A stretch of DNA of 64,000 nucleotides, from positions 625,477-689,476 of the forward strand of contig NZ_BMWT01000002.1 in the NCBI RefSeq assembly GCF_014651375.1. Direction: 5' to 3'. The stretch is from Tateyamaria omphalii (lineage in GTDB: Bacteria; Pseudomonadota; Alphaproteobacteria; Rhodobacterales; Rhodobacteraceae). The notes under the pieces are model-generated. The model worked only from the letters and a program-made list of their open reading frames with translations, ran no database searches and was not told where the DNA came from. Below are positions 47,748 through 59,124 of the stretch, one piece after another. A program made the translations under genes and the position numbers. How positions within the stretch are numbered: position 1 is the first letter of the stretch; the number at the start of each line of letters is the position of its first letter.

Positions 47748-49553
47748 TCAGGGCCTTGCCTTGACGGTCACATAGGATCCGGGGGCATCTTCAAGCACGG
47801 GATGGGCAGAATCACCCGGTTTACGTGCATTCACCATCGCCCCACCCTGCTTTTTCAGCCAGGCACCCCAGCGCGGCCACCACGACCCTTCATGGAAATC
47901 GGCAGCCTTCAACCACGCTTCGTGATCAAGGCTCAGATCTTCATTGGTGTAGTGACCGTATTTGTTCTTGCTGGGCGGGTTCACGATCCCGGCGATATGG
48001 CCCGATTGGGTCATGATGAAGGTCTTGTCCTTGGACCCCATCTGCTGCACGCCGCGATAACTGTCTTTCCACGGGGCGATGTGATCCGTCTCGCAGGCGA
48101 TTGCGCAGAGCGGCACGTCGATATCGCCCAGTTGAAGGTGATGCCCCATCAGGTCGAACCCACCCTCTGCCAGCTCATTGCGCTGACACAGACCGCGCAA
48201 ATACTGCATCGCCATCTTAGCTGGCAGATTGGCCCCGTCCCCATTCCAATAAAGCAGATCAAAGGCAGGTGGCGTCTCGCCCATCATATAGCTCTTGATT
48301 GCGGGCGTATAGACAAGGTCGGTGGACCGCAGGAACGTGAAAGTTCGCGCCATGATGACCGAGGGCAAAATCCCTTTGTCGGCGCATTCCGCTTCGATCC
48401 CGTCAATGAAGTCATCCGTCAAGAACGGCGTGAACTCTCCCTGATCGCTGAAATCTGTCAGCGCGGTAAAGAACGTGGCGGACTTGATCGACTTGTCCTT
48501 GCGCTGCTTCAGCAGGCTGAGGGTCAGGGACAGCGTGGTGCCAGCGATGCAATAGCCGATGGCGTTGACCTGCTTCTGGCCGGCGATGGCCTTGGCCTCG
48601 CGGATCGCGGCCAGGTATCCGTCCTCGATGTAGTCTTCCATCCCGACCCCGGCATAGGTGGCATCGGGGTTCACCCAGGACACCACAAACAGAGTGTGCC
48701 CCTGTTCGACCAGCCACTTCACCAGCGAATTCTGCTGCTTGAGATCAAGGATGTAGAACTTGTTGATCCACGGCGGGAACAGCACGATCGGGGTCTTGTG
48801 CACCTTTTCGGTAGTGGGCGTGTACTGGATCAGCTCCATCATCCGGTTGCGGTAGATGACCTTGCCTGGCGTCGTGGCGATGTTGTCGCCAAGTTTGAAT
48901 GCTTTGTCGTCGGCCAGCTTTACAATCAGCTCGCCATTGTTTGCCTCGAGATCGGAAATCAGGTTCTCAAGCCCGTCGATCAGGCTTTGTCCTTCTGTCG
49001 CGACTGCCTTTTCCAACGCATCAGGGTTCGTCGCCAGAAAATTCGTCGGCGCCATCATGTCCACGATCTGGCGCGAGAAATAAGCGAGGCGCTGCTTTTC
49101 TTTCGGCTCAAGGTCAGACACGGACTCGACTGCCTGCTCAACTGCATCAGCGTTTATTAGGTACTGCTGCTTGACGTAATTGAAGTAAGGATGCGTGTCC
49201 CACAGCGGGTTGGCAAAGCGGCGATCCTTCGGCCCGGGATTGGCAGGCGCCTGCAACTTACCCTGCGCCAGCGCCTGCTGCGCTTCAACAAAATGGGTCA
49301 CGGATTTCGACCAGAATTGCAGCTGGTGTTCCATCACTTTGGCCGGATCACGGAACGCTTCGTGCCAATAAGCCGTGGCCGCCTTGGTGAACAGTTCCTG
49401 ATTCGGGCCGTCGAGTGCAGCATTATGCGTGCTGCGGTGCGTCAAAACCTGAGTGAGTCGTTGCGTCAACTCCTCAACCTTACGGAGATTCGTATTCAAT
49501 TTATCGAGGTTTTCCCCCGAGACAGCACCACCGGTTGTGTCGTTGGTTGTCAT
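47748..49553 (-). CDS. phaC: class I poly(3-hydroxyalkanoate) synthase PhaC
   Basis: 601 residues with the synthase box GYCIAG (catalytic Cys335, in place of the lipase GxSxG), NPDATYAGVGMEDYIEDGYLA in the core (part) and the conserved HIAPWKDSYRGVQ (Asp/His region). It polymerises (R)-3-hydroxybutyryl-CoA. The gene runs opposite to phaZ and precedes phaP on the same strand. Confidence 0.97.
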   Translation of the reverse strand: MTTNDTTGGAVSGENLDKLNTNLRKVEELTQRLTQVLTHRSTHNAALDGPNQELFTKAATAYWHEAFRDPAKVMEHQLQFWSKSVTHFVEAQQALAQGKLQAPANPGPKDRRFANPLWDTHPYFNYVKQQYLINADAVEQAVESVSDLEPKEKQRLAYFSRQIVDMMAPTNFLATNPDALEKAVATEGQSLIDGLENLISDLEANNGELIVKLADDKAFKLGDNIATTPGKVIYRNRMMELIQYTPTTEKVHKTPIVLFPPWINKFYILDLKQQNSLVKWLVEQGHTLFVVSWVNPDATYAGVGMEDYIEDGYLAAIREAKAIAGQKQVNAIGYCIAGTTLSLTLSLLKQRKDKSIKSATFFTALTDFSDQGEFTPFLTDDFIDGIEAECADKGILPSVIMARTFTFLRSTDLVYTPAIKSYMMGETPPAFDLLYWNGDGANLPAKMAMQYLRGLCQRNELAEGGFDLMGHHLQLGDIDVPLCAIACETDHIAPWKDSYRGVQQMGSKDKTFIMTQSGHIAGIVNPPSKNKYGHYTNEDLSLDHEAWLKAADFHEGSWWPRWGAWLKKQGGAMVNARKPGDSAHPVLEDAPGSYVTVKARP

Positions 49554-49705
49554 GTTAAGGTCTTCCCCGTAGTGTTCGCATGTGCAGCAATGTTTGCGCG
49601 CGGCAATCGCCGCCTATCTATGGTCGCATGTTTCAGGGGGCAAAGCGACAAACCGTCCGACGCGGGACTGTGCGTACCCGCCCCTAAAGAGTGAAGGAGA
49701 GCGCG

Positions 49706-50980
49706 ATGCGCTACATGATCAGCTACGACTTCATGGAAACCATGCGAAACACCAACCAATGGCTCGGCGCGACCGCCCGCGCAATCGGGGCCTACCCCGC
49801 CTTTGCCGCCCTGCCCAACCCGGCGCTGCAAATGATGTCTGCCTGGGGCGAGGTGACGGAGCGCACTTTCGAACGGATGGTGGCCAAACCCGATTGGGGC
49901 ATTCGCACCTTCACCTGCGAGGATGGCCGCGACCACCTCGTCAGTATCGACAAAGTGGTTGAAAAACCTTTTGGTGACCTGATCCACTTCAATGTCTCGG
50001 GCCGCGAAACGCAGCCGCGGAAAATCCTGCTCGTGGCGCCGATGTCCGGCCACTACGCCACGCTCCTCCGCTCGACCGTCAAATCGCTATTGGTAAATTG
50101 CGAGGTCTACATCACCGACTGGCACAACGCCCGCGACATCCCCGTCAGCGCCGGCAAGTTCGATGTGGAGGATTACACCCTTTACCTTGTCGACTTCATG
50201 CGTGAATTGGGTCCCGACACCCACGTGATCGCCGTCTGCCAGCCCGCCCCACTGACACTCGCCGCGACCGCCTATCTGGCCGAGGAAGACCCCAAGGCGC
50301 AGCCCCGTTCGCTCACCCTGATCGGTGGACCCATCGACCCGGACGCGACACCAACCGAAGTCACCGACTTTGGCCGTCGCGTGACCATGGGGCAACTTGA
50401 GGAAACAATGATCCAACGCGTGGGTTTCAAATATCCCGGCGTCGGTCGCCTCGTCTATCCAGGCCTGCTGCAACTGGCCTCGTTCATGTCGATGAACGCC
50501 GAAAAACACTCCAAGGCCTTCAGCGACCAGATCGGGCGCGCGGCGCGTGGAGAGTCCAGTGATCACGACAAGCACAACCGCTTCTACGACGAATACCTCG
50601 CCGTGATGGACATGACAGCCGAATTTTACCTGTCGACCGTCGATCGCATCTTCAAACGCTGTGAGATTGCCAAGAACATCTTTTCCGTGAACGGCAAACA
50701 GATCGACATCGGCAAGATCACGACCGTCGCGGTCAAAACCGTCGAAGGTGCGAATGACGACATCTCGGCCCCCGGCCAATGCGTGGCTGCGCTTGATCTT
50801 TGCACGGGCCTGCCGGACGAGAAAAAGGCAAGCCACGTCGAACCCGGCGCGGGCCACTACGGCATCTTTGCCGGGAAAAGCTGGCGCAACAACATCCGCC
50901 CCCTTGTGCTTGAGTTCATTGATGCGAACTCGCCGAAGACACCTCCGAAGAAGGCCGCCAACAAGAACAAGGCGGCGTAA
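49706..50980 (+). CDS. phaZ: intracellular poly(3-hydroxybutyrate) depolymerase PhaZ
   Basis: 424 residues from ATG 49706 (AAGGAGA 6-7 bases upstream). The nucleophile elbow is VCQPAP with a cysteine (C178), typical of intracellular PhaZ, not the GxSxG of extracellular enzymes. C-terminus is Lys-rich. It mobilises native PHB granules. Divergent from phaC. Confidence 0.95.
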   Translation: MRYMISYDFMETMRNTNQWLGATARAIGAYPAFAALPNPALQMMSAWGEVTERTFERMVAKPDWGIRTFTCEDGRDHLVSIDKVVEKPFGDLIHFNVSGRETQPRKILLVAPMSGHYATLLRSTVKSLLVNCEVYITDWHNARDIPVSAGKFDVEDYTLYLVDFMRELGPDTHVIAVCQPAPLTLAATAYLAEEDPKAQPRSLTLIGGPIDPDATPTEVTDFGRRVTMGQLEETMIQRVGFKYPGVGRLVYPGLLQLASFMSMNAEKHSKAFSDQIGRAARGESSDHDKHNRFYDEYLAVMDMTAEFYLSTVDRIFKRCEIAKNIFSVNGKQIDIGKITTVAVKTVEGANDDISAPGQCVAALDLCTGLPDEKKASHVEPGAGHYGIFAGKSWRNNIRPLVLEFIDANSPKTPPKKAANKNKAA

Positions 50981-50983
50981 GCC

Positions 50984-51565
50984 TTGGCAGGCGTGGATCT
51001 CCCCTTCGCCTGTGACTGCGGAAAGCTGCGGGGGACACTTCTGGGCGTGTCCCCGACAAATGGCACCCGTGCCGAATGCTATTGCCATGATTGCCGCGCA
51101 GCTGAACTTTATGCCGGACAACCCGACCCGGCACCTGGGGGCGTACAAGTCTATCAATCCGTGCCTGACCGCGTCCGGTTCGACTTGGGCGAAGATCAAC
51201 TTGCGGCCTTCTCCCTCTCCGAAAAGGGCCTGTTGCAATGGCAGGCAAGCTGCTGCGGTGCCCTTCTTTTCAAAACCGCCCGCACCCCCAAATTGCCATT
51301 TGTCTCGTTCCGTACGGACAGACTCGAGGATGACAACCCGCTCGGCCCGATCGTCGCCCGCGCGTTTGTCCGCAAACCAAACGGCAAACGAGGGCACGAA
51401 GGTGGCCTGAAATTCATGTTCGGTTTTGCCGTTCGGGCGCTGTCACGGCGGATGACCGGGCTTTGGAAACAAACGCCCTTCTTCCATGCCGACGGCACAC
51501 CCGTCCGGGATATCCACATTGTCCCGGAAAATGATCGAAAAAAGTTCTACCCCGCCCGGAGCTAG
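50984..51565 (+). CDS. DUF6151/GFA-like zinc-binding family protein
   Basis: About 193 residues. CDCG near the start, CYCHDCRA (about 32-39) and CCGA further along give the cysteine pattern of glutathione-dependent formaldehyde-activating (GFA)-like zinc folds, and the length and C-terminal IHIVPENDRKKFY match the DUF6151 group. Start is TTG 50984 or GTG 50993; 3 bases after phaZ. Function unknown. Confidence 0.75.
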   Translation: MAGVDLPFACDCGKLRGTLLGVSPTNGTRAECYCHDCRAAELYAGQPDPAPGGVQVYQSVPDRVRFDLGEDQLAAFSLSEKGLLQWQASCCGALLFKTARTPKLPFVSFRTDRLEDDNPLGPIVARAFVRKPNGKRGHEGGLKFMFGFAVRALSRRMTGLWKQTPFFHADGTPVRDIHIVPENDRKKFYPARS

Positions 51566-51697: not shown

Positions 51698-52525
51698 TCA
51701 CGCACCGTTGCGCTCAGACCCCAGCGCCGCTGACAATCCCCGCGCAGCTTCCATGACCGCCTGTGCAAGAGCAGGAATATCACCGTCTCCGATCCGTGCC
51801 ACAGGGCCAGAGATGGATATCCCGGCAACCGTGTCCCCGGTCCAGTTCAAAACCGGTGCTGCAATGCAGCGCATACCGATGTTCTTTTCCTGATCGTCAA
51901 TGGCAAAGCCGCGCGTCCGGGTACGCTTCAACTCCGTCATCAACATGTCTCGATCCGCCATGGTGTGTTCAGTGAATCGTTCAAGCGTGCCATCACCCAA
52001 AACACGCTCGAGCATGGCCGCTGGCATTTCAGCAAGAAGCGCCTTGCCGACTCCGGACGCATGCATGGGTGATGCAGACCCGGGTGGAAAGAATGCGCGA
52101 ATGGAGTGATGACATTCGACCTGGCTGACAAACACAACCGATCCATCCCGAGGGACCGCGAGGTTCGCCGTTTCTCCTGTCTTGGCCATGAGCTGACGCA
52201 GGACAGACGCCGCCCGGTCGACCAGCGATGTGCGCCGCAGGTAACGCGCGCCGATGACAAAGGCCTGCGATCCAACATGCCAAAGCTGCGCCTCTGCATC
52301 GAACTCCACCAGCCCCCGTCCTTCCAGAGTGACCAGCACACGGTAGACGGTCGCGGGTGACTGATCGAGATTGCTTGCCAACTCCGACAGCGTCACCCCG
52401 GGCAGCGTCGAAAGATGCTCAAGCACGTCCATTGCGCGATCCAATGACTTAATGGTGTTCTGCTCGGTTTTGTCGGCCCAGGCCTTGGGTCTGCCCCGAC
52501 TGCGGCGGGGTTGAGAGTCTTGCAT
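51698..52525 (-). CDS. bhcR: IclR-family regulator BhcR
   Basis: 275 residues: winged HTH at about 28-90 (RAMDVLEHLSTLPGVTLSELASNLDQSPATVYRVLVTLE in part: SELASNLDQSPATVYRVL) and the IclR effector domain. It is divergent from bhcA, as in Paracoccus denitrificans, where BhcR responds to glyoxylate and controls bhcABCD. ATG 52525 after GGAAGAGC. Confidence 0.92.
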   Translation of the reverse strand: MQDSQPRRSRGRPKAWADKTEQNTIKSLDRAMDVLEHLSTLPGVTLSELASNLDQSPATVYRVLVTLEGRGLVEFDAEAQLWHVGSQAFVIGARYLRRTSLVDRAASVLRQLMAKTGETANLAVPRDGSVVFVSQVECHHSIRAFFPPGSASPMHASGVGKALLAEMPAAMLERVLGDGTLERFTEHTMADRDMLMTELKRTRTRGFAIDDQEKNIGMRCIAAPVLNWTGDTVAGISISGPVARIGDGDIPALAQAVMEAARGLSAALGSERNGA

Positions 52526-52546
52526 AATTTTGCTCTTCCTGAAATT

Positions 52547-52636
52547 TTGAAAATCAATTTCAACATATGAAAAATTCTACATCACTGTAAACAAGTAATT
52601 TTTCATGCTCCGCCCATTTTTGAAAAACGATTTCAA
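52547..52636. promoter_or_regulatory. candidate BhcR operators in the bhcR-bhcA gap
   Basis: Two copies of TTGAAA-N5-TTTCAA, at 52547-52563 and 52620-52636, with centres 73 bp apart (about seven helical turns), flanking a wider inverted repeat TGAAAAATT (52568-52576)/AATTTTTCA (52597-52605). The segment is AT-rich, unlike its surroundings. Repeated binding of one regulator with looping is an attractive inference; binding is unproven. Confidence 0.6.
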
Positions 52637-52697
52637 AAAAATTGCATCCGTATCGCATGGCGTCCTACACCTAAGCAACCCAAACGGAGGCGAAACG

Positions 52698-53888
52698 ATG
52701 AGTTTGCAAAACCCAGTGTTTATTCCCGGTCCAACCAACATGCCCGAAGCATTGCGGCGGGCCTGCGACCTGCCGACGATTGACCACCGTTCCGCAACGT
52801 TCCCCAACCTCCTCAACGCCGCGCGATCCGGCGTCCGCGATGTCCTCAAATCCCAGGTGGCTGACGTCTTTATCTTCCCGTCCACTGGAACCGGTGGTTG
52901 GGAAACCGCCATCGCAAACACTCTGCGACCCGGTGACACCGTTCTCGCCGCCCGAAACGGTATGTTCAGTCACAAATGGATCAAGATGTGCCAGGATTTC
53001 GGCCTCAGACCCATCTTCAAGGACGTCACCTGGGGGGAAGGCTTTCCCACCGATTGGGCGGAAGACCAGCTTGCAAAGGACACCGGACACCGGATCAAGG
53101 CCGTCCTGATCACCCACAATGAAACCGCGACCGGTGTGACTTCGAACGTGGCCGCACTGCGCAAAGCGCTCAGCGACACCAACCACCCCGCACTGCTCTT
53201 TGTCGATGGCGTCAGCTCCATCGGGTCCATGGATTTCCGTTTTGACGATTGGGGCGTCGACGTCGCCGTCACAGGGTCGCAAAAAGGGTTCATGCTGCCA
53301 GCGGGGCTGGGCATCGCGGCCTTTTCTCCAAAGGCGATGCGCGCCACGGAACAAGGCGGGTTGCCACGCGGGTATTTCAACATTCAGGACATGGCCGCCA
53401 GCTACAAGACGGGTGGGTATCCATACACCCCCTCTGTCGGCATGCTGAACGGCTTAAAAGAATCCTGCGACATGTTGATGGGCGAGGGATTGGAAGCGGT
53501 TTTCGCGCGCCATCGCCGCATCGCGGACGGGGTACGCGCCGCCGTCCGGGCCTGGGGGCTCGACATCTGTGCTGCGCATCCGGACCTGTATTCCGATACG
53601 GTGACCGCCATCAAAACACCCGCGGGCTTTGACGCGGGGCAGATCGTTGCCCATGCCGAGCACGCCTATGGCGTATCTTTCGGTGCTGGCCTTGGGGACG
53701 TTGCGGGCAAAGTGTTCCGCATCGGTCACCTCGGCAGTTTGACCGATGTGATGACATTAAGCGGGATTGCCACGGCTGAAATGGCCATGGTTGATCTGGG
53801 CCTCGACATCACGCCGGGCTCAGGCGTGGCCGCAGCCCAAAACGTATACCGAAAAGGAAAATCATCCACACTGTCGGAGGCCGCGTAA
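52698..53888 (+). CDS. bhcA: aspartate-glyoxylate aminotransferase BhcA
   Basis: 396 residues of the class V aminotransferase family: FIPGPTNMPEALR, DHRSATFPNL, and the PLP lysine in GSQKGFML (K196). The first step of the beta-hydroxyaspartate cycle: transamination of glyoxylate to glycine with aspartate as donor. ATG 52698 after GGAGG. Stop overlaps bhcB by one base. Confidence 0.94.
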   Translation: MSLQNPVFIPGPTNMPEALRRACDLPTIDHRSATFPNLLNAARSGVRDVLKSQVADVFIFPSTGTGGWETAIANTLRPGDTVLAARNGMFSHKWIKMCQDFGLRPIFKDVTWGEGFPTDWAEDQLAKDTGHRIKAVLITHNETATGVTSNVAALRKALSDTNHPALLFVDGVSSIGSMDFRFDDWGVDVAVTGSQKGFMLPAGLGIAAFSPKAMRATEQGGLPRGYFNIQDMAASYKTGGYPYTPSVGMLNGLKESCDMLMGEGLEAVFARHRRIADGVRAAVRAWGLDICAAHPDLYSDTVTAIKTPAGFDAGQIVAHAEHAYGVSFGAGLGDVAGKVFRIGHLGSLTDVMTLSGIATAEMAMVDLGLDITPGSGVAAAQNVYRKGKSSTLSEAA

Positions 53889-54853
53889 TGAAAGACCTGA
53901 TCACCGATATTCCCACCTACGACGACATGCTCAAGGCGCATGACCGCATCAAGCCGCACATCCGGCGCACGCCTGTGCGGACGTCGGACTACTTGAACGA
54001 GCTGTCCAGCGCCCAACTGTTTTTCAAATGCGAGAACTTTCAGGAACCCGGTGCCTTCAAGGTGCGCGGTGCGTGCAATGCGGTGTTTGGGCTGGACGAT
54101 GCCCAGGCGAAACGGGGCGTCGCCACGCATTCGTCAGGCAACCACGCGTCTTGCCTGAGTTACGCGGCAATGAAACGCGGCATCCCCTGCAATGTCGTAA
54201 TGCCCAGAACCGCGCCACAGGCCAAGAAAGACACCGTACGTCGTTATGGTGGCGTGATTACCGAATGCGACCCGTCGACAACCAGCCGCGAGGCAACATT
54301 TGCCAAAGTGCAGGGCGCGACCGGAGGGGATTTTGTCCATCCCTACAACGATCCTCGCGTGATCGCCGGTCAAGGCACCTGTTCCAGGGAATTCATCGAG
54401 CAGACCGATGGGCTTGACGTTGTTGTTGCGCCGATTGGCGGTGGCGGGATGGTGTCTGGCACCTGCCTGACCCTGTCTACGTTGGCGCCTGAAACACAAA
54501 TCGTGGCGGCCGAACCCGAACAGGCGGATGATGCCTATCGCAGCTTCAAGGCAGGACACATCATTGCCGATGACGCTCCCAAGACCATTGCCGACGGGCT
54601 GTTGGTGCCACTCAAAGAACGCACCTGGCATTTCGTGTCGAACCACGTCACCGAGATGTTCACCGCCTCCGAGCAAGAGATCATCGACGCGATGAAGCTG
54701 ACCTGGAAGCACCTGCGCATCGTGATGGAACCGTCCAGCGCCGTGCCACTGGCCTGTGTTCTCAAGAACCCCGACTTTTTTGCCGGCAAGCGTGTCGGCC
54801 TGATCATCACCGGCGGCAATGTTGACCTTGACCGCCTGCCCTGGACCACCTGA
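53888..54853 (+). CDS. bhcB: beta-hydroxyaspartate dehydratase BhcB
   Basis: 321 residues of the threonine/serine dehydratase fold: KCENFQEPGAFKVRGA with PLP Lys58, SSGNHASCLSYAA, and GGGGMVSGT phosphate loop. Converts (2R,3S)-beta-hydroxyaspartate to iminosuccinate, with loss of water. TAATG overlap with bhcA; 15 bases to bhcC start. Confidence 0.94.
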   Translation: MKDLITDIPTYDDMLKAHDRIKPHIRRTPVRTSDYLNELSSAQLFFKCENFQEPGAFKVRGACNAVFGLDDAQAKRGVATHSSGNHASCLSYAAMKRGIPCNVVMPRTAPQAKKDTVRRYGGVITECDPSTTSREATFAKVQGATGGDFVHPYNDPRVIAGQGTCSREFIEQTDGLDVVVAPIGGGGMVSGTCLTLSTLAPETQIVAAEPEQADDAYRSFKAGHIIADDAPKTIADGLLVPLKERTWHFVSNHVTEMFTASEQEIIDAMKLTWKHLRIVMEPSSAVPLACVLKNPDFFAGKRVGLIITGGNVDLDRLPWTT

Positions 54854-54868
54854 GTGAGGAGACCCGAG

Positions 54869-56032
54869 ATGAAAGACACGACCCAATTGAGCGACCTGGA
54901 AGTTGGTTTTGACGTCCCGGCCCTGCCGGGTATGGACGAAACGGACATCCAGACCCCATGTCTGGTGCTGGATCTCGATGCACTGGAATACAACGTCAAG
55001 AAGATGGGCGATTACGCCAAGGCCCACGGCATGCGACACCGCGTGCACGGCAAGATGCACAAATCCGTGGACGTGGCCAAGCTGCAGGTTGAGCTGGGCG
55101 GCGCCTGTGGCGTGTGTTGTCAGAAAGTGTCGGAAGCAGAGGTGTTTGCACGCGGCGGTATCTCTGATGTCCTGGTGTCCAATCAGGTCCGCGATCCAGC
55201 CAAGATTGACCGGCTTGCCCGGATGCCAAAGCTGGGCGCGCGCACGATCTGCTGTGTGGATGACATCTCGAATGTCGCAGATTTGTCTGCGGGTGCGCAG
55301 CGGCACGGCACCGAAATCGAATGCCTGGTCGAAATTGATTGCGGCGCAGGGCGTTGTGGGGTGACGACCACGCCCGACGTTGTGGCCATCGCCAAGGCCA
55401 TCGACGCAGCGCCCGGTCTGAAATTTGCTGGCATTCAAGCCTACCAGGGTGCGATGCAGCATCTGGACAGCTTCGAGGATCGCAAGGCCAAGATCGACAT
55501 TGCCGTTGCCCAGGTCCAAGACGCTGTGGCCGGGCTCAGCGCCGAAGGACTGGAATGCGACATCGTCGGCGGGGGCGGCACCGGCTCCTATTACTTCGAG
55601 TCCAATTCCGGCGTCTACAACGAGCTGCAATGCGGGTCATATGCCTTCATGGACGCGGATTACGGCCGCATCCTCGATCAGGATGGCAAGCGGATCGACC
55701 AGGGTGAATGGATGAACGCACTTTTCATTCTGACCAGTGTCATGAGCCACGCCAAGGCAGACAAAGCTATCGTGGATGCCGGGCTCAAGGCGCAATCCGT
55801 TGACAGCGGCCTGCCATTCATTTTCGGGCGCACCGACGTGGAATACGTCAAATGCTCGGACGAGCACGGTGTTGTAGCAGATCCTGACGGTGTGCTTGCC
55901 ATCAACGACAAGCTCAAGCTGGTGCCGGGTCACTGTGACCCGACCTGCAATGTGCACGATTGGTATGTCGGCGTGCGCGGCGGCAAAGTAGAAACCCTTT
56001 GGCCCGTTTCTGCCCGCGGAAAGGCATATTGA
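54869..56032 (+). CDS. bhcC: beta-hydroxyaspartate aldolase BhcC
   Basis: 387 residues of the D-threonine aldolase family: CLVLDLDALEYNVKKM, HGKMHKSVDVAKLQ with the PLP lysine region, and the C-terminal metal site PGHCDPTCNVHDWYV. Condenses glycine and glyoxylate. ATG 54869 after GAGGAG. Stop overlaps bhcD as TGATG. Confidence 0.95.
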   Translation: MKDTTQLSDLEVGFDVPALPGMDETDIQTPCLVLDLDALEYNVKKMGDYAKAHGMRHRVHGKMHKSVDVAKLQVELGGACGVCCQKVSEAEVFARGGISDVLVSNQVRDPAKIDRLARMPKLGARTICCVDDISNVADLSAGAQRHGTEIECLVEIDCGAGRCGVTTTPDVVAIAKAIDAAPGLKFAGIQAYQGAMQHLDSFEDRKAKIDIAVAQVQDAVAGLSAEGLECDIVGGGGTGSYYFESNSGVYNELQCGSYAFMDADYGRILDQDGKRIDQGEWMNALFILTSVMSHAKADKAIVDAGLKAQSVDSGLPFIFGRTDVEYVKCSDEHGVVADPDGVLAINDKLKLVPGHCDPTCNVHDWYVGVRGGKVETLWPVSARGKAY

Positions 56033-57027
56033 TGGACGGCGCTCAGATGACACAACACGAACTGGTGATCGTCCCCGAGGGGATGATCGCCGACATGCTC
56101 ACCCGCAAATCCGCATTCGACGCCGTCGAGAATGTCTTTGCCGCCATGGCGGCTGGCGACGCCTACAACTTCCCCGTGGTGCGCGAAGCAATCGGCCACG
56201 AGGATGCGCTATACGGCTTCAAGGGCGGCTTTGATCGCGCAGGCGGTGTGTTGGGATTGAAAGCCGGAGGGTACTGGCCACACAACCTGGAACGGCGTGG
56301 CCTGATCAATCACCAGTCCACGGTGTTCCTGTTCGATCCCGATAGCGGACGGGTCAAGGCCATGGTGGGCGGCAACCTTTTGACCGCGCTGCGCACAGCC
56401 GCTGCGTCTTCGGTGTCGATCCGGCATCTGGCGCGCAAGGACGCAAGGGTTCTCGGCATGATTGGCGCGGGCCACCAGGCCACGTTCCAACTGCGCGCGG
56501 CCCTTGAAACCCATGGCTTCGAAAAGGTGATCGGTTGGAATTACCACCCCGAAATGCTGTCGAACCTTGCCAGTGTCGCAGAAGAGATGGATGTGCCTTT
56601 CGAGGCCGTCGACCTGCCTGACATGATCCGGGCCGACGCGATCATCACGATCACGTCGTCCTTCGCACCAACGCTACTGGCAGAGCATGTCAGCCCAGGC
56701 ACACATATTGCCTGCATGGGCACGGACACGACTGGCAAGCAGGAGGTCTCGGCAGACCTGCTGGCAGGGGCAACAGTCTTTGCCGACGAAGTCGCGCAGT
56801 CGGTCTCGATCGGCGAAGCCCAGCACGCGATCAAGGACGGGCTTCTGGCAGACACCGACATTCACCAACTGGGCAGCGTCATAAACAGCGCACATCCCGG
56901 CCGCATCTCGGACGAACAGATCACCGTATTCGACGGCACCGGCGTTGGCTTGCAGGACCTCGCCGTGGCGGCATCCATCGTGGATGCGGCGGTCTCGTCC
57001 GGGCAAGCAACTGTCGTTCCGATTTGA
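56032..57027 (+). CDS. bhcD: iminosuccinate reductase BhcD
   Basis: 331 residues of the ornithine cyclodeaminase/mu-crystallin family; the NAD-binding motif GMIGAGHQATFQ is present at about 140-151. Reduces iminosuccinate to aspartate. ATG 56032 gives a TGATG overlap; ATG 56047 (MTQHEL) is an alternative. Last gene of bhcABCD. Confidence 0.92.
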   Translation: MDGAQMTQHELVIVPEGMIADMLTRKSAFDAVENVFAAMAAGDAYNFPVVREAIGHEDALYGFKGGFDRAGGVLGLKAGGYWPHNLERRGLINHQSTVFLFDPDSGRVKAMVGGNLLTALRTAAASSVSIRHLARKDARVLGMIGAGHQATFQLRAALETHGFEKVIGWNYHPEMLSNLASVAEEMDVPFEAVDLPDMIRADAIITITSSFAPTLLAEHVSPGTHIACMGTDTTGKQEVSADLLAGATVFADEVAQSVSIGEAQHAIKDGLLADTDIHQLGSVINSAHPGRISDEQITVFDGTGVGLQDLAVAASIVDAAVSSGQATVVPI

Positions 57028-57278: not shown

Positions 57279-58364
57279 ATGCTCTTCGATTTGCCAGACC
57301 ACGACACCCTGTACAGGGCACTGATAAACCGCGATGCCGCCTTTGACGGACGCGCTTATGTCTGCGTGTCGAGCACAGGCGTGTTCTGCCGACTGACCTG
57401 CCCCGCACGCAAACCCAAACCAGAGAATTGCAGCTTCTTCGGCACGGTGGGCGAATGTATCGAAGCCGGGTATCGCGCCTGCAAACGGTGCCATCCCCTT
57501 GCCCCGATGGCCATGGCCGACCCAGCCATTGCAAGCCTGCTGGCCGCGCTCGATGAACGCCCCGACTACCGCTGGCGGGAAAGCGATGTCGAAAAACTGG
57601 GGTTTGACCTGTCCACCGTGCGCCGCAGTTTCAAACGACAATTCGGAATGACATTTCTTGAAATGGCCCGCCAACGTCGGCTCCGAGACGGGTTCGAAAC
57701 CATGGCCCAAGGGGGCGCGGTGATCGAGGGTCAGCTCGATGCCGGTTTTGAGTCCGCAAGCGCCTTTCGCACCGCGTTTTCGAACCTGGTTGGCAAGGCC
57801 CCCGGCACCCTGTCGCGCAAACCGCTTTTGTTTGCAGACTGGATCACCACTCCGCTCGGCGACATGATCTCGATCACCAGCCAGTCCCAGCTTCACCTGC
57901 TGGAATTTTTCGACCGCAAGGCGCTGCACGGTGAAATCGCGAAACTGGATACATTCGCGAAAGGAAAGATTGGCATTGGCCGCACCAACCTCTCTGACCA
58001 GATCAGAGAGGAACTGGCCGCCTTCTTTGCCGGCACATCTGACGCATTCAAAACGCCCGTCGCCCTGCGCGGTTCAGAATTCACCAAACAGGTCTGGGAC
58101 GCCCTGCGCGAGATTCCGGCCGGACAAATCCGCAGCTACTCTGACATCGCCAGACGCATCGGCCGACCCGCCGCCGTCCGTGCAGTGGCGCGGGCAAATG
58201 GTGCCAACCAAATCGCGCTGGTCATCCCATGCCATCGCGTCATTGGCGTCGATGGGTCCCTGACCGGTTATGGCGGCGGCCTCTGGCGCAAACAGAAGCT
58301 CTTGGAAATCGAACGGCAGTTTCTGCCATCCGCACTGCAAGGAAACAACCATGTCTCAGACTGA
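57279..58364 (+). CDS. ada: bifunctional Ada: DNA alkylation repair and regulator
   Basis: 361 residues. Ada Zn domain with C37, C41, C68 and C71 (C37 is the likely methylphosphotriester acceptor), an AraC-type HTH in the middle (DVEKLGFDLSTVRRSFKRQFGMT in part), and an MGMT domain with PCHRVIG (C318). It removes O6-alkylguanine and phosphotriester adducts and activates the adaptive response. Starts at ATG 57279; overlaps the next gene's frame by 14 bp. Confidence 0.95.
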   Translation: MLFDLPDHDTLYRALINRDAAFDGRAYVCVSSTGVFCRLTCPARKPKPENCSFFGTVGECIEAGYRACKRCHPLAPMAMADPAIASLLAALDERPDYRWRESDVEKLGFDLSTVRRSFKRQFGMTFLEMARQRRLRDGFETMAQGGAVIEGQLDAGFESASAFRTAFSNLVGKAPGTLSRKPLLFADWITTPLGDMISITSQSQLHLLEFFDRKALHGEIAKLDTFAKGKIGIGRTNLSDQIREELAAFFAGTSDAFKTPVALRGSEFTKQVWDALREIPAGQIRSYSDIARRIGRPAAVRAVARANGANQIALVIPCHRVIGVDGSLTGYGGGLWRKQKLLEIERQFLPSALQGNNHVSD

Positions 58365-59124
58365 CAAAGCCAAGCACTTTCACGCACTGCACCGAAGAGA
58401 TGATCCGCTCGTTCTTTACAACATATGGGATGCGGCGGGCGCCAAGACCATCGCCAAGGCGGGCGCGCCAGCTGTGGCAACAGGAAGTTGGTCGGTGGCA
58501 GCGGCCCATGGGTTTGACGACGGGCAGGCCATCCCCCTCGACCTTGTGCTCACCATCGTCTCCCGTATCTGCGCCAGCGTCGACCTGCCGGTCAGTGTCG
58601 ATTTCGAAGGCGGCTATGCGATCGCTCCGAAGGATGTCGCGGAAAACGTTCGACGCGTCATTCGGGCAGGCGCAATCGGCATAAACTTTGAAGACAGAGT
58701 GGTGAACGGCACCGGTCTGCATCCCATCTCCGAGCAAGCAGAACGCATTGCAGCAATCCGGACCATGGCAAATGAAGAAGGCGTGCCGATCTTTATCAAC
58801 GCACGCACGGATCTGTTTCTGGGAACAGACCCCGGAATACATGAGGGCCAGATATCCGAAGCCTTGGAACGCGAAGCGGCCTACGCGGACGCCGGTGCAA
58901 GTGGCTTTTTTGTCCCCGGTCTGACCGACCTTGGCCTTTTGAGCAAAATCACGACCGCGGCCAGCCTGCCGGTCAACGCAATGATGCTGGGTGATCTTGC
59001 TTCGGTCGACGACTGTAAGGGCTGCAATGTGTCCCGCTTCAGTTTTGGGCCCGCACCGTTCGCCCGTGCCATGTTAGACTTGCAAACCCGGTTCAGCAAA
59101 ATTTCTGGGTCCGGCAGCCACTAA
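58351..59124 (+). CDS. isocitrate lyase/PEP mutase family protein
   Basis: 257 residues of the TIM-barrel ICL/PEPM superfamily: YNIWDAAGAKTIAKAG, VDFEGGYA (metal-binding D/E segment), and INFEDRVVNG. It lacks the KKCGH of isocitrate lyase. Could be an oxaloacetate decarboxylase-like or 2-methylisocitrate lyase-like enzyme. ATG 58351 with AGGAAAC upstream; overlaps the end of ada by 14 bp. Confidence 0.88.
   Translation: MSQTDKAKHFHALHRRDDPLVLYNIWDAAGAKTIAKAGAPAVATGSWSVAAAHGFDDGQAIPLDLVLTIVSRICASVDLPVSVDFEGGYAIAPKDVAENVRRVIRAGAIGINFEDRVVNGTGLHPISEQAERIAAIRTMANEEGVPIFINARTDLFLGTDPGIHEGQISEALEREAAYADAGASGFFVPGLTDLGLLSKITTAASLPVNAMMLGDLASVDDCKGCNVSRFSFGPAPFARAMLDLQTRFSKISGSGSH

Follow-up and report, generated by a model that had tools for sequence, protein, structure and literature searches.

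The bhc locus

The window, that is, the whole 64,000-nt stretch of Tateyamaria omphalii DNA that we analyzed, contains a complete β-hydroxyaspartate-cycle cluster with its own IclR-family regulator, because bhcR and bhcA to bhcD all pass the NCBIfam equivalog cut-offs; the genes and the gap between the first two are:

51698–52525, minus strand: bhcR, IclR-family regulator (NF045644, 385.6 bits against a cut-off of 350; Pfam IclR_C and HTH_IclR above cut-off)
52526–52697: divergent promoter-operator gap of 172 bp, AT-rich, between bhcR and bhcA
52698–53888, plus strand: bhcA, L-aspartate--glyoxylate aminotransferase (NF045640, 674.4 bits against a cut-off of 650)
53888–54853, plus strand: bhcB, β-hydroxyaspartate dehydratase (NF045641, above cut-off)
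54866–56032, plus strand: bhcC, 3-hydroxy-D-aspartate aldolase (NF045642, above cut-off)
56032–57027, plus strand: bhcD, iminosuccinate reductase (NF045643, above cut-off)

In the window, the bhcR ortholog is divergent from bhcABCD, the arrangement that marks a BhcR-regulated bhc promoter. The initial annotation had described the gap as AT-rich and about 170 bp long; it measures 172 bp, and the GC content of segments inside it is 28–44%, as compared with 54–68% inside the two flanking genes. We took 52698 as the start of bhcA because GGAGG precedes it and because it agrees with the annotated start of Ruegeria pomeroyi bhcA; an alternative, longer in-frame ATG is located at 52605, and reading from there crosses the proximal box described below.

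Two divergent genes in the neighborhood of the cluster (47748–50980) encode a PHB polymerase (PhaC_N, minus strand) and a PHB depolymerase (PHB_depo_C); the end of the depolymerase gene is located approximately 0.7 kb from bhcR, so that carbon storage is encoded next to glyoxylate assimilation. A DUF6151 protein (50984–51565) is encoded between the depolymerase gene and bhcR. Downstream of bhcD (57279–59124) are genes for an Ada-type O6-methylguanine methyltransferase and a member of the PEP mutase family.

Two boxes in the bhcR–bhcA gap

The motif TTGAAA-N5-TTTCAA had been noticed twice in the gap, 73 bp apart from start to start, and this is exact: TTGAAANNNNNTTTCAA is found at 52547–52563 and again at 52620–52636. 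When as many as two mismatches are allowed, the window contains four matches to TTGAAANNNNNTTTCAA, the remaining two carrying two mismatches each; dinucleotide shuffles of the window contain 1.26 matches on average and reach four in 3 of 100 cases. Considered as a direct repeat, the two copies of the box extend over 19 nt and are 89% alike. We refer to the copies as distal and proximal and to their arms as half-sites:

52547–52563: distal box, with half-sites H1 (TGAAA, 52548–52552) and H2 (TTTCA, 52558–52562); exact match and consensus
52620–52636: proximal box, with half-sites P1 (TGAAA, 52621–52625) and P2 (TTTCA, 52631–52635); exact match and consensus

Conservation and spacing of the boxes

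Our first set of relatives was collected from contigs as BhcA-encoding loci, that is, the best 80 of 417, in 70 of which bhcR is divergent and next to bhcA. To these 70 gaps and that of the window we added 24 others (16 from a phylum sample and eight from named plasmids); removal of six near-duplicates (L026, L049, L055, L082, L112, and L116) from the resulting 95 left 89 gaps. The phylum sample consisted of 30 matches kept as loci, one of which is the window itself; 13 of the 30 (L098–L110; BhcA identity 51–55%) were set aside, unscored, as doubtful BhcA, and no BhcR match was found in the stretches fetched for them. The S. meliloti Rm41 locus (L118) had no BhcA match and was left out.

In 84 of the 89 gaps (a set built on the best 80 of 417), the proximal box starts 71–75 bp after the start of the distal box (71 bp in 25 gaps, 72 in seven, 73 in 36, 74 in 12, and 75 in four). 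The separation of about seven helical turns proposed in the initial annotation is thus held among relatives, and its reading of the two boxes as operators agrees with the alignment, in which both putative operators are conserved across Rhodobacterales. The boxes are also conserved into Hyphomicrobiales; the distal box is good in Roseibium and more degenerate in Rhizobium, Sinorhizobium, Aminobacter, and Methylobacterium. Ten of the 84 gaps score poorly (L018, L033, L061, L072, L078, L079, L091, L097, L111, and L113), and the box pair is unconvincing in L078 and L097. The gap of Paracoccus denitrificans (L111) is degenerate, with TTGAAAATCACTCTTTGGCTTTGGAAAAG as the distal box (H2 lost) and GCGAAATATTTTTCAGAAAAATTG as an imperfect proximal box. 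In four of the five gaps outside 71–75 bp (L008, L025, L056, and L088) the script was mis-anchored, and by eye a third half-site (H3, described below) is located 51–53 bp from the proximal box; the fifth (L011) lacks a clear proximal box.

Over the 84 gaps, the standard deviation of the distance between the distal and proximal elements is 1.19 bp, a value conditioned by the selection of these gaps for that spacing; for the distance between the start of bhcR and the distal element it is 13.3 bp, and for that between the proximal element and bhcA 2.7 bp. No clear spacing class at another whole number of turns was found among the gaps examined, so influences other than helical phase, e.g., promoter packing, may fix the spacing.

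A second sample was chosen by BhcA alone from 295 genomes of the same family; 103 have a BhcA match at an E value of 1e-150 or better, at 104 places, and the upstream region was taken at all 104. With orientation checked, bhcR is divergent at 98 of the places and absent alongside at six. Five or fewer mismatches over the 27 specified bases of the two elements together are found in 75 of the 98 family gaps and in 0 of 980 dinucleotide shuffles. By a strict two-box rule (≤2 of 10 mismatches in the proximal box, ≤3 of 17 in the distal, spacing 69–77 bp), 65 of the 98 gaps pass, as compared with 0 of 4,900 shuffles; the 33 failures are commoner when BhcR is less than 54% identical to that of the window (49 of 62 gaps pass at ≥54% identity and 16 of 36 below). 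The proximal box alone (≤2 mismatches) is found in 84 of the 98 gaps and also in 898 of the 4,900 shuffles, and on its own is weak evidence in AT-rich DNA. As an unconditioned test of the spacing, we allowed any distance from 30 to 140 bp; 78 family loci then match with ≤5 mismatches, 69 of them at 71–74 bp and the other nine scattered (37, 37, 41, 45, 47, 63, 84, 84, and 114 bp).

A third half-site

The initial annotation had also reported a wider inverted repeat. Its perfect 10-nt arms, ATGAAAAATT at 52567–52576 and AATTTTTCAT at 52597–52606, are present; however, the repeat is located between the boxes rather than around them, and only one of its arms is conserved. The additional elements are:

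52568–52574, plus strand: third half-site H3, TGAAAAA (A-tract-anchored count; columns 0.89–1.00 conserved over 84 loci)
52597–52606: unconserved right arm of this repeat, which might belong to an A/T-rich element upstream of bhcR
52635–52641, plus strand: A-tract overlapping the end of P2, nearly invariant (columns 0.95–1.00 conserved over 84 loci)

For counting H3, 85 of the 89 gaps were anchored solely on the bhcA-side A-tract, avoiding circular alignment (four could not be anchored). An exact TGAAAAA begins 66–70 nt upstream of the A-tract in 73 of the 85 gaps and in none in the adjacent 5-nt bins. The right arm, TTTTTCA, is exact at its offset in just 2 of the 85 loci, and with one mismatch in 15, as compared with 0 to 10 of 85 in two flanking bins; we therefore rejected the wider inverted repeat as a functional unit. 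Judged from the aligned gaps, it is the candidate half-site H3 (left arm) together with an unconserved right arm. H3, which the initial annotation had overlooked, is the best conserved part of the putative distal operator, so that the distal element is a predicted three-half-site operator of the PcaU/PobR kind.

Over the 84 regularly spaced gaps, the distal consensus is TGAAA-N5-TTTCA-N5-TGAAAAA, which is present exactly in the window, and the proximal consensus is TGAAA-N5-TTTCAAAAAAATT. The half-site columns are conserved; the spacer is mostly variable, apart from the AA that follows H3 and from a TGACAA-like and a T-rich stretch. In the family sample, anchoring on the proximal TTTC and the A-tract was possible for 77 gaps (21 could not be anchored); [TC]GAAAA is located 51–54 bp from P1 in 72 of these and is missing there in five. 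Several of the poorest family loci have lost H1 and H2 and keep one TGAAAAA and the proximal box. At four loci (L131, L133, L138, and L144) the distal triple is exact yet the proximal box is poor. At three loci (L132, L134, and L141), it is the proximal site, read from the opposite direction, that matches the triple exactly: an extra half-site on the inner side of its palindrome mirrors the distal triple; because these proximal sites carry an inner third half-site, the ancestral layout may have consisted of two mirror-image triple operators.

Occurrence of the motif in whole genomes

The pattern TGAAA-N5-TTTCA occurs at six places in the whole 4.75-Mb genome, two of them in this gap (the reversed control pattern occurs once); TTTCA-N5-TGAAAAA occurs exactly once, in this gap. 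In the 295 family genomes the exact triple site has 18 matches, 17 of which are between bhcR and bhcA, and the reversed control has none. The eighteenth (L140) is next to an IclR-like gene other than bhcR, the product of which is 29% identical to BhcR, in a stretch with no BhcA match.

The four further genome places with TGAAA-N5-TTTCA were dismissed as BhcR targets, nothing tying them to glyoxylate; the third half-site, within one mismatch, is at none of them. From our own reading of the frames, made independently of family searches, L148 is by a NusA-like frame, L149 immediately precedes an XRE/cupin-like frame, itself preceded by thiolase-like and GAF-like frames, L150 is inside a frame that follows a resolvase-like one, and L151 is inside a sulfotransferase-like frame.

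Loci where bhcR and bhcA are parted

Among the best 80 of 417 loci, bhcA is without a neighboring bhcR at ten, and all ten genomes contain one BhcR match elsewhere. At nine of these loci (L010, L014, L017, L022, L030, L034, L037, L047, and L051) bhcA is preceded by a gene for (S)-ureidoglycine aminohydrolase, which scores above NCBIfam cut-offs, and at the tenth (L012) by a gene for a sugar-nucleotide dehydratase/epimerase-like protein. The neighborhood of ureidoglycine aminohydrolase and bhcA may link purine breakdown, a source of glyoxylate, to the cycle.

Upstream of the relocated bhcR, the triple site is found with ≤3 of 17 mismatches in 10 of 10 genomes (again from the best 80 of 417), and for each of the ten none of 500 mononucleotide shuffles is as good. 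The family sample provided five additional relocated bhcR genes: L250 has the triple with one mismatch; L251 has five mismatches, its site resembling a reversed proximal box plus a half-site, that is, a different arrangement; and in L252–L254 the triple site was not found, so it is missing in three of the 15 relocated genes overall.

On the other side, 16 bhcA loci are without an adjacent bhcR (the ten from the best-80 set and six from the family sample). H3, as [TC]GAAAA, is located 50–54 bp from P1 in 12 of the 13 that were anchored; in L215 the third half-site is not at the kept position, and in L210, which was not anchored, both elements are visible at 71 bp. The distal element is kept and the proximal lost in L047, and little of H1 and H2 is left in L231 and L238. 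At eight Marivita-type loci, all without bhcR, the H2–H3 and proximal elements remain, at a spacing of 70 bp (H3 to P1, 50 bp); the half-sites are 0.85–1.00 identical in pairwise comparisons and the H3–P1 spacer 0.47, and H1 is off consensus by at least two bases at seven of the eight loci and by one base at the eighth. These Marivita cases probably stem from one rearrangement because their gene contexts are shared.

Because the distal element is kept at bhcA without bhcR, and mostly also at bhcR without bhcA, the distal operator probably serves both genes; this is the main new point of this work.

At another of the 16 loci (L194, genome G511), bhcA has an internal stop and neither operator element, that is, the system has decayed; this is the only one of these genomes in which no BhcR match at an E value of 1e-40 or better was found.

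Predicted promoters

The positions of the elements relative to the genes were compared with predicted promoters on both strands:

52562–52567, minus strand: predicted bhcR −10, TATGTT, in the H2–H3 gap (promoter scan; position in consensus)
52586–52591, minus strand: predicted bhcR −35, TTTACA (promoter scan and consensus; the 71-bp class has TTGTCA)
52642–52647, plus strand: predicted bhcA −35, TTGCAT, abutting the A-tract (T, T, and G conserved 0.99, 0.81, and 0.55; assigned by hand)
52666–52671, plus strand: predicted bhcA −10, TACACC, weak (T 0.79, A 0.87, T 0.56; assigned by hand)

The scan identified a promoter-like match for bhcR, TTTACA-18-TATGTT, on the minus strand from 52591 to 52562; in the consensus columns of the 71-bp class, the −35 is TTGTCA, 17 bp from a TA..(.)T-like −10, and a T-rich stretch near the right arm of the inverted repeat could be an A/T-rich element located upstream of the bhcR −35. 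A plus-strand match, TTGAAA-17-AAAAAT at 52547, was taken for chance. For bhcA, the consensus contains TTG straight after the A-tract and TAnnnT 17 bp on (18 bp in the window); the TTGCAT/TACACC pair was not reported by the promoter scan of the gap, hence we consider it a weak match. With these assignments, transcription of bhcA is predicted to start near 52678, placing the center of the proximal box near −50; the distal site would cover the predicted bhcR −10, and the proximal site would adjoin the predicted bhcA −35.

A probable two-part operator and its alternatives

In ubiquitous Alpha- and Gammaproteobacteria, glyoxylate that derives from algal glycolate is assimilated by the β-hydroxyaspartate cycle (PMC11323563); among the matches listed in our literature searches, this is the only paper on BhcR. 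Its data on the P. denitrificans protein, from EMSA and a reporter, are that BhcR binds a 238-bp fragment of the gap, with glyoxylate weakening and pyruvate strengthening the binding, and that the Pbhc reporter needs BhcR; a bhcR deletion mutant does not grow on glycolate or glyoxylate (PMC11323563). The authors hypothesize a repression site upstream of bhcR and an activation site upstream of bhcA, and the puzzle that they leave is that glyoxylate weakens the binding of BhcR to DNA yet activates expression (PMC11323563).

In the gap described here, BhcR very probably binds both boxes; from the aligned letters we infer which half-sites it would touch. We consider it reasonably likely that the gap is a two-part BhcR operator that serves two back-to-back promoters, with both sites acting jointly, and likely that the distal site is important not only for bhcR but also for bhcA. 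BhcR bound to H1–H2–H3 would shut off bhcR, that is, autorepression, because the predicted bhcR −10 lies in the H2–H3 gap. The proximal palindrome with its A-tract, centered near −50, might place the regulator in contact with RNA polymerase. The two operators would face the same side of the DNA, mostly 71–75 bp (about seven turns) apart, where a BhcR tetramer or two cooperating dimers could hold both. Looping by a tetramer, as suggested in the initial annotation, would fit the fixed spacing; physical bridging of both operators by BhcR is possible, although we lean slightly against it. Glyoxylate would alter the BhcR complex, freeing bhcR and activating bhcA, presumably in this order.

We prefer joint action on bhcA to one site per gene because of the relocation cases and the tight spacing. 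If each box served its own gene and the two did not interact, the distal would only repress bhcR and the proximal only activate bhcA; the boxes would be placed suitably for this, one over the predicted bhcR −10 and the other next to the predicted bhcA −35, the authors proposed for Paracoccus that each gene has its own upstream site (PMC11323563), and the relocated bhcR keeps its triple site in 10 of 10 genomes. However, bhcA without bhcR keeps H3 at 50–54 bp from P1 (12 of the 13 anchored of 16 loci) although the spacer has decayed, and the family gaps cluster at 71–74 bp when the spacing is left free, so we regard the separate action of the boxes as rather unlikely. The fixed spacing might also be the mere packing of back-to-back promoters, with no contact between BhcR molecules; the −35 and −10 positions of both promoters are conserved between and beside the boxes, and the spacing varies by 1–4 bp with no clear whole-turn class, as packing would allow, but the eight Marivita-type loci hold their H2–H3 and proximal elements at 70 bp although bhcR is not there, which makes packing alone an unlikely explanation.

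That the two boxes are chance repeats in AT-rich DNA might be argued from the composition of the gap and from the ease with which shuffles yield a proximal-like match alone (898 of 4,900); because 65 of 98 real gaps and none of the 4,900 shuffles carry both boxes at 69–77 bp, the boxes are not chance, and we regard this explanation as refuted. It is very improbable that another regulator uses one of the boxes, e.g., CceR, which we take to be a LacI-family protein. A central CG is typical of LacI-family sites and is present in some proximal boxes; however, it is unconserved (columns 0.46 and 0.33), and we rejected a LacI-type reading of the proximal box because its center is not conserved. For P. 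denitrificans, CceR has been reported as a regulator of carbon metabolism (PMC11323563), but the triple site accompanies the relocated bhcR in 10 of 10 genomes, and the boxes are gone in G511, which has no BhcR match at 1e-40 or better (one genome only).

Returning to joint action by BhcR, we tentatively suggest one bridged complex that spans seven turns on five half-sites, three of which cover the bhcR promoter while the other two adjoin the bhcA −35; by loosening the distal contacts, glyoxylate would both relieve bhcR and convert the proximal BhcR into an activator. If true, this would explain how an inducer weakens binding in vitro and BhcR is nevertheless an activator in vivo. The relocated-gene cases predict that the distal operator is important for bhcA, unlike the published hypothesis of one site per gene (PMC11323563). 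The conserved layout supplies the exact letters and positions for mutation, and it is a ready design for a glyoxylate biosensor, a goal named in the discussion of PMC11323563.

Comparison with known systems

The closest known system is BhcR–Pbhc of P. denitrificans, which shares the regulator family model, the divergent gap, and the pathway. The boxes had been called not known in the initial annotation, which holds only in part, because one palindrome has been predicted upstream of the bhcA −35 in P. denitrificans (PMC11323563). A palindrome is likewise located upstream of the predicted bhcA −35 in the window (52620–52636, with the −35 at 52642–52647); the published palindrome fits the proximal box by its stated position (PMC11323563). 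The triple operator over the bhcR promoter, the spacing, and the conservation are not described for Paracoccus in the available portion of PMC11323563.

E. coli AllR and IclR are regulators of a sister clade that also respond to glyoxylate (PMC11323563). The five-base gap of TTGAAA-N5-TTTCAA is found also in the AllR motif, KTTGGAAWAWTWTTCCAAC, which differs in one base per half-site, whereas the IclR motif, TGGAAATNATTTCCA, has a shorter gap than the boxes here (PMC8222616). Our consensus scan of E. coli aceB returned one IclR-like box only and provides no spacing comparison. Two IclR boxes at aceBAK were reportedly described by Yamamoto and Ishihama in 2003.

Suvorova and Gelfand predict three-box sites for 32 IclR-family groups, citing PcaU, PobR, and HmgR, and the third half-site is needed for binding by PcaU (PMC8222616). 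In the three-box operators of these proteins the half-sites alternate in direction, as they do here, and both half-site spacings are shared; the H2–H3 consensus fits their group 1 (WTT-11-AAW), from which the window differs at two inner positions, and H1–H2 has the half-site spacing of group 2 but is without its inner CA...TG (PMC8222616). Tandem sites in the family are commonly 18–22 nt apart, and distances of three and four turns are also over-represented (PMC8222616); the palindromes in the gap, at 73 bp, are farther apart than tandem sites with centers 18–22 nt apart, and the direct repeat formed by H1 and H3 has a spacing of 20 bp. Unlike the groups in the available portion of PMC8222616, the triple at the bhc locus has as its partner a separate palindrome at a distance of about seven turns.
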